From positions 1 through 44,365 of the forward strand of contig JABIGM010000021.1 in NCBI GenBank assembly GCA_018650165.1: a DNA stretch of 44,365 nt. Reading direction: 5' to 3'. The DNA comes from Methanobacteriota archaeon. GTDB taxonomy: Archaea; Thermoplasmatota; Poseidoniia; Poseidoniales; Poseidoniaceae. A model generated the notes under the pieces. It saw only the letters and a list, made by a program, of their open reading frames with translations. It did no database searches and was not told the origin of the DNA. The first letter of the stretch is position 1. Each line of letters starts with the position of its first letter. Both the position numbers and the translations under genes were made by a program. Shown here one piece after another: positions 37,317 through 40,846 of the stretch.

Positions 37317-38342
37317 ATGGATTTGGTTCAAGCGGCGTGGATGATTCGCGATCTCGGCCAACCAGTTAGCGCTTTACACATCGGCGAGGACGCGTCCATA
37401 ATCGCCGGGGGATGGGACGGGGCCCTCAAAAAATGGGACCACGAAGGTACTCTATTGTGGGGGACACAATGCGAAGACCGAATTGAATGTATTTTGGTTG
37501 ATGGTGAATTAGTCGTAGTCACGTCAGGCCTGCATATCACTTGCGTAATCGATGGAGAAATTCAATGGAGCCATGCATTGGAAGGTTCAGCAGACTTACT
37601 TACCACTTTCAATGACCAAATTATAGCTACCTCAAGCGTGTACGATATCGAGCATGGCGATTTTATGGAAAGCGGGATTTGGAACTTCACACGTGAAGGA
37701 GAATTACTGAATGTTAATCGCATGGACGAAAGACCATGGTTCATTGCTTCTGAAGCGGACTTAATCGTAGGGCTTGGTCGTCCGAAGTGCGGCGTACTGA
37801 TTGGAAACGAATATCACAATTTGGCAACCGAGTCTCCGGTAACATGCGGAGTTTCGGGTAGAGAAAGAACACTATTTGGTCATGCAGACGGAACCGTATC
37901 GTCATTAGATGGCGCAAAGGTTTCCAAAGAAGAAACTTCGATAGATTCTGTATTGTGTTCTGAAAGCGGATTTGTCATTGCATTAGAAAATGGGACATTA
38001 GTTGCCCGTTCACCCGACTCAACTGAATTATGGAAAGCACCAGGCTCTCAAATTACAACCCAAGTATCTGGTTTCAATGAATTACATTGGTGCGGCCGGT
38101 GGCAAATTACCACGGGCGTTGTTGAGGTTAGAGGCTCAGATGGCAAATTAATCACTTCAGCTTCAACTTCACGGCCAAGAGTTTCGACTTCATCTGAATT
38201 AAGAATCGGTATCGGTTTTGACGATGGCCAAATCCTGGTATGGGAAAAGGAATTGTTTGAACGCCGTTCATCTGAAAAATCATCATCTACGGATGGTCGA
38301 AAATCTGCCTTGGCTGCTAAACTTCGATCACTACGAGAATGA
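37317..38342 (+). CDS. Beta-propeller protein (WD40/PQQ-type)
   Basis: The 341-residue soluble protein is built of repeats ending in W-D or similar: ASIIAGGWDGALKKWDHEGTLLW near residues 26-48, IDGEIQWSH near 82, and later RTLFGHADGTVSSLDG, FVIALENGTLVARSPDSTELWKA and IGIGFDDGQILVWEKEL near the end, which gives a likely seven-bladed propeller. No signal peptide is present, so it is cytoplasmic, presumably a protein-binding platform. The last 25 residues are basic and Ser-rich. It follows the membrane-protein gene by 39 bases and is the last gene before the structured non-coding region. Confidence 0.8.
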   Translation: MDLVQAAWMIRDLGQPVSALHIGEDASIIAGGWDGALKKWDHEGTLLWGTQCEDRIECILVDGELVVVTSGLHITCVIDGEIQWSHALEGSADLLTTFNDQIIATSSVYDIEHGDFMESGIWNFTREGELLNVNRMDERPWFIASEADLIVGLGRPKCGVLIGNEYHNLATESPVTCGVSGRERTLFGHADGTVSSLDGAKVSKEETSIDSVLCSESGFVIALENGTLVARSPDSTELWKAPGSQITTQVSGFNELHWCGRWQITTGVVEVRGSDGKLITSASTSRPRVSTSSELRIGIGFDDGQILVWEKELFERRSSEKSSSTDGRKSALAAKLRSLRE

Positions 38343-38436
38343 TGTTATTTATTGAACAAATCTTCCAGTGGATACAGTGGAAAGCATAGCCGTAGACCCC
38401 CGTTTCGCATGGAAAACAGCCGAAAAAAGCGTAAGG

Positions 38437-38444
38437 TTTATTTG
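38437..38444 (+). promoter_or_regulatory. Candidate TATA box of the structured non-coding RNA
   Basis: TTTATTTG, preceded by CGAAAAAAG at 38421-38429 as a possible BRE-side purine stretch, lies about 25 bases before the first strong hairpin of the non-coding region. A transcript from near 38465 would begin just before the CCGCTC/GAGTGG hairpin. The match to an archaeal TATA element is moderate. Confidence 0.45.
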
Positions 38445-38464
38445 CCGCCTCTGCACACATGAAT

Positions 38465-39345
38465 ATTGCCGCTCTGAAAGGAGTGGTGGAGGACTTCTCC
38501 GGAAGCCCTCTGGGACCCTTGCCAACCGGACGCTCAAACCGAGCAAAGTGTTGGTCACAAACTCTGGAGACGGAGCGAGTGAGGCGATCGGGGAGATTGT
38601 GAACTTTCGAGTTCAGAAAGTCCCTCCGCCCACAGGATGATACGGAGCTTCGGCGAAGAATCAGCCACATATCTTTCGAGGAATGTGGTATAGGGAGGGC
38701 CACAACTTGTTGTGGAATTACCAAAGACTGTGCAACAGCCGGGAGGAGTAGCAGTAACAGTTCTTCGGAACAACCTCTGTTACAACAAACGGCTTGGTGG
38801 AAAAGTTTCGGCTTGGAAACCACGGGCGGAGACCGAATCAGGGATGCAACCTTCGGGATGCAAAACTGGAAACGGACCAACCACGGACGGAAACCGCGCA
38901 ACCCACTTCTTCGGAAGTGAGTTGAAACGGACCTCCATGGCCAAGACCGAATTGGAGAGCAACCTTCGGGAAACTCGAAAAAAACGGATGGCCACCGTTG
39001 GAGGAAGCACGATCACTTCGGTGAGAATGTGAAAAACAACACCGGTAGAGAGGAAACAGGACCTTCGGGCGATGTGAAATCAATACCACCCTGGGAATCT
39101 ACCATTTCGGTGGAAGATGAACAGTACCCGGCTGTTGAGAAGAAGGCACCTTGGAAACAAGATGTCAACGAACTGGAAAGCACTTTTCGGAGTGAAGAAA
39201 GGTGACGACGACTCGACGGCCACCAGCGGAGGCTGGCAGGGGGGCGGATATCCCACCCGGATGAAACCCCCCTGCCAGTTCTCCCATCCTGCTTTCACAG
39301 GTAAACGGGTGCCAGTGCATTCCGCTTATGACTCTTAAGGACGTA
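38465..39345 (+). ncRNA. Large structured non-coding RNA, about 880 nt, unidentified (RNase P RNA considered)
   Basis: No convincing ORF occupies 38343-39376, while hairpins are dense. I count twelve TTCG sites, most in hairpin loops: GAACT-TTCG-AGTTC (within 38583-38630, which also pairs GGCG with CGCC and GGGGA with TCCCT), CCACAT/ATGTGG (38665-38688), GTAACAG-TTC-TTCG-GAAC-CTGTTAC (38754-38783), CACTTC-TTCG-GAAGTG (38904-38919) and others. A perfect 12-bp helix pairs 39233-39244 with 39267-39278. CTTG-GAAA-CAAG adds a GNRA loop. The C-UUCG-G orientation shows plus-strand transcription. The segment 38921-38957 (TTGAAACGG, then CTCCA/TGGAG closing GGCCAAGACCGAA) resembles the P11/P12 region of archaeal RNase P RNA, and GCTTATG near 39323 resembles its 3' conserved block, but no matching P4 helix was found and the length is more than twice normal. 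Ends are approximate. Confidence 0.7.
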
Positions 39346-39376
39346 AATCTTCTTCGCGACCACTTTTGATTGGTGA

Positions 39377-40768
39377 TTAATTTACGCCAGTCATTTCTTC
39401 AGGCCTAACCCACTGGTCGAACTCTTCATTGGTAAGGAACCCTAATTCAAGAGCGGCTTCCCTCAGAGTCGTGCCTTCCTGGTGTGCCTTTTTAGCGATC
39501 TTTGCAGATTTATCATATCCGATATGATTATTCAAAGCTGTAACTAACATTAGTGAATTCTCTAGATGATTTTTGATAACATCCCTATTTGGCTCAATAC
39601 CTTCCACGCACTTTTCTCTAAACGCGCGCATTGAGTCTGATAGAATCCGTGCACTATGCAATAGATTGTGAATCATCATTGGTTTGAATACATTCAATTC
39701 GAAATTACCTTGGCTTCCTCCGATTGTGATGGCCGTGTGATTGCCCATCACTTGACAGCAAACCATTGTTAGGGCCTCGGATTGAGTTGGGTTTACCTTT
39801 CCTGGCATAATAGAGGATCCTGGCTCATTAGCGGGAAGTGATAATTCTCCAAGTCCACATCTTGGCCCAGAACCTAGCCAACGTACATCGTTGGCTATTT
39901 TCATCAAACTTACAGCCAAGGTGTTGAGTGCGCCACTCGCAGATACAACAGCATCATGAGCGGCTAATTGTGAAAATTTATTTGGCGCTGAAACAAACGG
40001 CAGACTCGTTTTCAATGCGATGGCAGCAGCCACTCTATCTGCAAACTCGGCATGAGTATTGAGTCCGGTACCCACTGCAGTACCTCCTAATGCCAACTCG
40101 TGTAAATCTTCTAACACAAATTCAATTCTTCGAATATCAGCATCTAATTGTGCAACCCAGCCACTTGCTTCTTGCCCGAGTGTTAAAGGTACAGCATCCA
40201 TTAAGTGAGTACGTCCAATTTTTACAACATCAGACCATTCATCCGATTTTATCGCTAGTGCATCTCTCAAATTTGCAAGGCTGGGCAGTAACTCATGAGT
40301 GAAAGCTTCAGCACTGGCAATATGCATCGCAGTTGGAAAGGTATCGTTGGAGGACTGTGCGCGATTAACGTGGTCATTTGGATGAACAGGACTCTTGGAT
40401 CCAAGTACCCCACCCGCCATTTCTATTGCACGGTTTGCAATAACTTCGTTTGAATTCATATTCGATTGTGTTCCAGAACCGGTTTGCCAAATGCGTAAAG
40501 GAAAATGGTCATCCAATTTCCCATTAACAACCTCTTCAGCAGCAGCAATAATTAATTTTGAAACATCAGAGTCTAGTTGTCCCAAATCAGCATTGACTTT
40601 TGCCGCCGCTTGCTTGAGTATTCCAAACGCCCGAACGATTTCTCGCGGCATTTTGTCATCACCAATATCGAAGTTGATTAGGGACCTCGCGGTCTGGCAT
40701 CCGTAGTAACGATCTGCAGGAACTTCCAACTCTCCCATGGTATCGGACTCGATTCGAACATCTCTCAT
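39377..40768 (-). CDS. fumC: Fumarate hydratase, class II
   Basis: ATG 40768 gives 463 residues, near the family's usual 460-470; a GTG at 40840 would add 24 residues without homologous features. Family blocks are visible along the whole length: [76 protein letters not shown], and the signature [16 protein letters not shown] with the flexible catalytic serine loop, then [11 protein letters not shown]. It hydrates fumarate to malate in the TCA cycle without an iron-sulfur cluster. The alternative, a class II aspartase, is less likely given the start and the loop sequence. It is convergent with the structured RNA region and divergent from the sulfotransferase-like gene. Confidence 0.95.
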
Positions 40769-40846
40769 ACCCGTAGGGGCGTAGGTGGTTGTCCATGTCC
40801 CTTTCCCCTCGCAACCGTCAAAGGGGTGAATCCAGAGCACTACCTG

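Follow-up and report, generated by a model that had tools for sequence, protein, structure and literature searches.

The window, by which we mean the whole stretch of DNA analysed (44,365 nucleotides from a genome of the archaeal order Poseidoniales), carries on its plus strand a gene for a predicted structured RNA of about 850 nt, at approximately 38462-39311. The gene lies between a WD/beta-propeller-like gene and a convergent fumC (Table 1). The gap between these two (38343-39376) is the largest intergenic gap of the window once a spurious minus-strand ORF of 194 codons (38317-38901), which overlaps the RNA locus, is set aside; an earlier reading made from the sequence alone (the sequence-only reading) had likewise placed the RNA between two protein genes in a stretch with few other gaps. 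The start of the RNA falls near 38462-38468, the first of these positions being inferred from the spacing to the TATA box. The consensus fold closes at about 39310, and the end given here is that of the closing helix rather than a mapped 3' end, with conservation of the DNA extending to about 39340. The span originally proposed was 38465-39345. With regard to the neighbouring fumC, the ORF as listed encodes 487 aa, homologs mostly align from residue ~24-28, and an in-frame TAG is found in several of the homologs whose alignment reaches further upstream. As judged from these alignments, the start of ORF 39377-40840 on the minus strand is probably set too early, the likelier start being a Met near residue 25.

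Table 1. Positions in the window of the RNA gene, its promoter elements, the parts of its predicted fold and the flanking genes.
Feature	Position	Strand	Basis
WD/beta-propeller-like flanking gene	37317-38342	+	ORF list; syntenic; outside the RNA
Distal dyad region CTTCCAGTGGATACAGTGGAAA, twin-dyad promoter element	38362-38383	+	Dyads in 107/107 homologs; match in own genome
Proximal dyad TTTCGCATGGAAA, 1 mismatch to TTTCCnnTGGAAA	38403-38415	+	Homolog comparison; match in own genome
BRE/TATA box CGTAAGGTTTAT	38430-38441	+	Conserved across the order as CGAAAGGTTTAT
Structured RNA	38462-39311	+	Consensus fold compared with null alignments; order-wide homologs
5' hairpin GCCGCUCU-GAAA-GGAGUGGU	38468-38487	+	Most conserved 5' element; near the RNA start in most homologs
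Second hairpin, 38488-38497 with 38502-38511	38488-38511	+	10 pairs, 5 changed on both sides
Long-range closing helix	38515-38523 with 39300-39310	+	Consensus fold of 12 congeneric sequences; 0 double changes, weakly tested
Three-part UUCG hairpin	38583-38630	+	Two stacked helices; double changes in 14/17 pairs
Long-range helix, CAGGA with UCCUG	38633-38637 with 39287-39291	+	Consensus fold; 0 double changes, no covariation test
Central-domain helix	38691-38698 with 39086-39093	+	7 pairs, 1 double change
CUUCGG hairpin	38899-38924	+	11 pairs, 9 double-changed, 3 significant
CUUCGG hairpin	39058-39073	+	6/6 pairs double-changed, 1 significant
Penultimate domain, helix 39130-39142 with 39209-39221 and hairpins 39145-39166 and 39181-39194	39130-39221	+	
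3' terminal hairpin, [A/U]GCGGAG-helix-C-rich apical hairpin-GAACCC-helix-CUCCCA	39220-39286	+	Covariation; R1 and R2 matches
fumC flanking gene, convergent	39377-40840	-	ORF list; syntenic; outside the RNA

The absence of any convincing ORF, already remarked on in the sequence-only reading, is borne out by comparison within the genus. Among 12 congeneric sequences, 147 of 159 indels have a length that is not divisible by 3, and from congener to congener the longest ORFs vary in both strand and frame. On these grounds the 194-codon ORF was dismissed and a protein-coding locus rejected.

The RNA is preceded by a BRE/TATA box and by two dyads further upstream. The TATA-like element that had been suspected at 38437 is real, and boxes resembling CGAAAGGTTTAT are found near -26 of the aligned 5' block in nearly all of the listed homologs, beginning 38 nt ahead of the 5' hairpin in those where both elements were located. 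Dyads of the TTTCCnnTGGAAA type, with up to 3 mismatches allowed, are present in all 107 homologs whose upstream sequence was read, most often around -85 and -52, that is, 33 bp apart. Within the window's own genome the twin-dyad pattern occurs at the RNA promoter and at one other place, inside a GTPase-like reading frame, where the match is taken as chance. As far as sequence can establish it, then, the promoter is conserved and dedicated to the RNA gene; the twin dyads are probably bound by a dimeric regulator.

Twelve TTCG sites are found in 38465-39345, an excess over chance that had been noted at the outset and that withstands shuffling (mean 3.0, with 0 of 500 shuffles reaching 12). That most of them sit on perfect stems is a fair description: seven of the twelve close uninterrupted stems of at least 4 bp, for which the shuffled mean is 0.06, but four have just 2 contiguous loop-adjacent pairs. 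Stem-closing sites of at least 4 bp number only 2 elsewhere in the window (43.5 kb) and 0 on the minus strand of 38465-39345. Relative to shuffles the plus strand also folds better than the minus strand (z-scores -4.15 and -2.98, respectively). UUCG loops do not, however, serve as a hallmark of the family, since copies from the window's genus have 10.5 on average but those from most other genera only 0.6-4.5. The capping loops exchange among UUCG, UUAG and others across homologs, as is to be expected of capped stems.

The RNA is predicted to be an array of tetraloop-capped helices held inside long-range pairings. The 5' hairpin and the 3' terminal hairpin hardly vary; the interior is variable, and the sequence of the single-stranded stretches is poorly conserved from one genus to the next. 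The 3' terminal hairpin is the family-defining 3' core, and it is exactly here that both of the covariance models described below, R1 and R2, find their match. The 12-bp helix first seen at 39233-39244 with 39267-39278 is present and is longer still, running to 18 pairs (39226-39244 with 39267-39285), and its tip is formed by a small C-rich hairpin. In the second family of the order (f2, Thalassarchaeaceae to judge by record titles) the apical loop of the core reads UCCCCCAU, or a near variant, in most copies, and a search within the RNA for a conserved internal partner of this loop found none. The three-part hairpin that had been proposed is also recovered in the consensus fold, with 20.8% unpaired cells in the alignment of its longer helix, and the helix and two hairpins of the penultimate domain contain 5, 4 and 4 double-change pairs, respectively. 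The window copy meets both features of membership, namely the 3' core GCGGAG-helix-CUCCCA, with covariation, and the 5' hairpin GCYGCUYC...GRAGUGGUG at a fixed distance past the BRE/TATA box.

Covariation was assessed with our own simplified, R-scape-like script, which applies a G-test with APC. In the null alignments the substitutions were re-dealt along a FastTree tree, per-column rates not being preserved, and the fold under test was predicted by RNAalifold from the same alignments that were used for covariation. A single-set test over all column pairs yielded no significant pair, either with 30 sequences or with 81 (best E about 0.2), and for this reason a two-set test was adopted and calibrated on nulls. 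With 81 f2 sequences the two-set test gives 19-20 significant pairs, four null alignments put through the same folding and testing giving 0, 0, 1 and 0, and with the 12 sequences of the window's genus it gives 15, compared with 0, 0, 0 and 0. Among the 150 top-scoring column pairs of the f2 set, 29 lie inside the 147-pair RNAalifold fold, where about 0.1 would be expected. The consensus energy is -254.8 kcal/mol for f2 (nulls, -37 to -57 kcal/mol) and -474.8 kcal/mol for the window's genus (nulls, about -219 kcal/mol). The helix of the 3' core shows compensatory changes in both families, with a covariation score matched by 0 of 500 shuffles and a signal that drops when the partner strand is slid. 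Several of the long-range helices are nearly invariant, so covariation does not probe them. Covariation among homologous regions beside fumC, gathered from across the order, which the sequence-only reading had named as a check, is strong.

When 293 genomes of the order were searched at the DNA level, homologs turned up in 30. Many congeneric genomes align over the whole of the ~900 nt (74-85% identity); in other genera and in the other family it is a short 3' core that aligns (75-89% identity). In nearly all of these genomes the RNA follows the WD-repeat gene and faces fumC, the arrangement being syntenic across the Poseidoniales, and the WD/fumC gaps of other genera hold the same RNA, diverged past detection by BLAST. 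Two covariance models reach further: R1, a model of the 3' core, matches 53 of 319 genomes, and R2, built from f2 only, matches 59 of the 80 genomes queried. The match of R2 to the window copy (39220-39289, 30.4 bits, E 6.6e-4) provides independent evidence of homology, as R2 contains no sequence from f1, the family of the window. Altogether, homologs are found in over a hundred separate assemblies, usually as a single copy per genome.

Among the genera sampled, the RNA is present in all 11 of f2 (g12-g22), where the 5' hairpin and 3' core are of the kind seen in the window copy, and in 3 of the 11 of f1 (g1, g6 and g11); in g2, g3, g4, g5, g7, g8, g9 and g10 no copy was found at the locus. 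The WD gene and fumC are retained close together, without the RNA, in g5, g9 and g10. Apparent protein reading frames fill the WD-fumC gap, in the RNA's place, in g3 (L118) and g8 (L124), and these may possibly represent a replacement at the RNA locus. A FumC tree places g1 with g5, and g6 with g10; if FumC follows the species, several losses of the RNA in f1 are likely, though a single-gene tree is a weak basis for such an inference. Some loci of g11 and g19 keep the RNA without an adjacent fumC. The description of the RNA as lying upstream of fumC is accordingly sound as a statement of adjacency but not with respect to regulation: in most genera fumC is convergent, on which account a riboswitch or leader was rejected, and the RNA persists without fumC in some.

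The distance from the 5' hairpin to the core ranges from ~430-440 nt, in short forms of g19, up to ~870 nt. In g15 a 3' module of ~330 nt occurs twice in tandem, so that there are two 3' cores, and one member spans ~1200 nt; the loci with the duplicated module are L064-L069 and L076, and the sequence between the cores is N-masked in some assemblies. In g16 (L172, L129, L130 and L174) a purine-rich repeat unit like GGACGCAAGGAAGGGGAAGG is expanded within the RNA.

Outside the order, neither R1 nor R2 has a match in phylum samples of 390 genomes, nor does R2 in 119 genomes of the class, and occurrence beyond the Poseidoniales was rejected. A pattern scan of the whole of GTDB for the f1-type 3' core returned 41 stretches, 34 of them in records titled Euryarchaeota, Poseidoniales or related archaea. 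The remainder carry bacterial titles, and with ~7 chance matches expected by estimate these are regarded as chance level, L297 aside. This record (L297 / L080, 'Deltaproteobacteria bacterium AH-558-G13') carries the RNA core, its match lying in the same position as in a genome of the window's family (G317), and its title is probably wrong. A scan of GTDB for the 5' hairpin returned zero matches, with known Poseidoniales carriers also missed by the pattern. In viral contigs the f1 core pattern has no match and the 5'-hairpin pattern has two, in contigs with neither the flanking genes nor the 3' core, where the sequence past the hairpin looks unrelated; a viral origin was rejected.

A search of the whole window and 16 homologous loci with cmscan and Rfam 15 found no family at gathering score, and weak matches (E<=10), sought in the window copy and two divergent homologs, included none that is credible, so that this check, too, falls out as the sequence-only reading had supposed. 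OLE, GOLLD and ROOL, specifically, are found neither at gathering score in the window and the 16 loci nor at E<=10 in the window copy and the two homologs. Archaeal RNase P RNA (RF00373) and SRP RNA (RF01857) are, like the Poseidoniales RNA, stable structured archaeal RNAs, and both have separate copies in the genome. The former was rejected at the locus, where it scores 10.8 bits against 84 required, its true gene being on contig C49 (223.7 bits); the latter has no match in the window and is encoded on contig C1 (106.3 bits). The exclusion of these known archaeal RNAs therefore stands. A tRNA or tmRNA was rejected for want of any ARAGORN gene in the window, and a Y RNA for want of its Ro60 partner, the TROVE domain (PF05731) being missing from 41 genomes, 25 of them of the window's genus. 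No described, testable RNA family matches the Poseidoniales RNA. Comparison thus establishes, as far as it can without transcript data, a conserved noncoding structured RNA with a conserved promoter and locus, usually in single copy, and the original proposal of a large structured RNA without a known family is supported to the same extent.

The reading that we favour, with moderate confidence, is that this is a stand-alone gene for a large structured noncoding RNA, with its own twin-site promoter, whose product acts in trans as the scaffold of an RNP. The RNA would be transcribed on the plus strand from the BRE/TATA promoter, and the twin upstream regulator sites suggest that its level may be switched by a growth or stress regulator. 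Action in trans is inferred from the persistence of the neighbours without the RNA and, at some loci of g11 and g19, of the RNA without an adjacent fumC. A scaffold fits best because both ends are fixed and the interior is free in length and sequence while its helices remain, having been shortened in one genus (g19) and enlarged by duplication of the 3' module in another (g15). The two invariant ends could serve as sites for protein binding or for processing and end formation, and the fast-changing, length-variable interior as an architectural spacer or assembly surface; these roles are inferred from the pattern of conservation only, with no partner data. The absence of the RNA from several f1 genera suggests that it is useful but dispensable. 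A scaffold would, in terms of such sequence evidence, look much like a ribozyme or a molecule acting through RNA-RNA contacts.

The alternative that survives best, and that we consider possible if rather unlikely, is that the RNA is the full-length form of Tan1, an unassigned noncoding RNA of 229 nt that ranked fifth by RNA-Seq in MGII ('Thalassoarchaea'), that has homologs at 75-79% identity in Thalassoarchaea only, that has a complex fold and that belongs to the most abundant transcripts of MGII in Red Sea metatranscriptomes (PMC5069720). Tan1 and the Poseidoniales RNA are both unassigned, structured and from the same archaeal group, Tan1 being abundant in situ, and every sampled genus of f2 carries the RNA with its conserved promoter. 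Their sizes do not agree, however, as members of the Poseidoniales RNA span ~430 nt upward. Should the two be identical, the RNA would be new as a large class, but as a transcript it would already be known in part.

An RNA-only homo-oligomeric assembly, a cage or dimer like those of GOLLD, ROOL and OLE, seems quite unlikely. These RNAs resemble the Poseidoniales RNA in their size (600-900 nt), in an elaborate fold supported by covariation and in their lack of a known function, and in GOLLD, too, a terminal region is conserved and the rest less so (PMC12286853), as in the Poseidoniales RNA; the C-rich apical loop, having no conserved internal partner, would be free for intermolecular contact. 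However, GOLLD, ROOL and OLE belong to bacteria and phages, whereas the Poseidoniales RNA occupies a fixed locus beside fumC on an archaeal chromosome, has an archaeal promoter of its own, matches none of these families in Rfam, has no tRNA near it in the window, and gave no sign of its presence in viral contigs. Nor is any self-complementary loop conserved family-wide.

We regard a catalytic function as improbable. Size, elaborate fold and conserved terminal segments would suit a large ribozyme, but conservation peaks at the ends and both the sequence and the length of the interior are free to vary, unlike RNase P and the group I and II introns, which have conserved core nucleotides. There is also no Rfam ribozyme match above chance. 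No less improbable is a base-pairing regulator or RNA sponge that would act through purine-rich segments and the C-rich loop: purine content is 0.57-0.71 by genus and the unpaired loop of the UCCCCCAU type is conserved, but the RNA is far above the usual size of such molecules and its single-stranded stretches are only weakly conserved between genera. There is very little room for a cis element (a 3' UTR of the WD gene, a leader or a fumC antisense), as might be suggested by a position directly 3' of the WD gene and, in most genera, converging on fumC, given the RNA's own conserved promoter, the survival of both flanking genes without it in g5, g9 and g10, and its own survival at some loci of g11 and g19 where fumC is not its neighbour. 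Protein-coding sequence or assembly noise, for which only the overlapping minus-strand ORF speaks, can practically be discounted in view of the frame-breaking indels, the inconsistent ORFs of the congeners and the number of separate assemblies with homologs.

Marine group II (MGII) archaea rank with the most abundant archaea of the plankton and remain uncultured. We know of no other archaeal RNA so large whose fold has covariation support, rRNA and the RNase P and SRP RNAs excepted. Beyond the trans-acting RNP scaffold favoured above, we would suggest, more tentatively, that the Poseidoniales RNA may represent an undescribed, order-wide class of large ornate archaeal RNA, with nearly invariant ends, which would form an RNA-based particle (either an RNP or RNA-only) whose synthesis is regulated through the twin sites, in an archaeal group that is one of the most abundant in the surface ocean. 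It offers an archaeal case for a question still unanswered, namely the function of large ornate RNAs. Should Tan1 prove to be part of it, the RNA would be among the most abundant transcripts of MGII cells. An order-wide and usually single-copy structured RNA with its own, apparently regulated promoter points to a component of these cells that has yet to be described.
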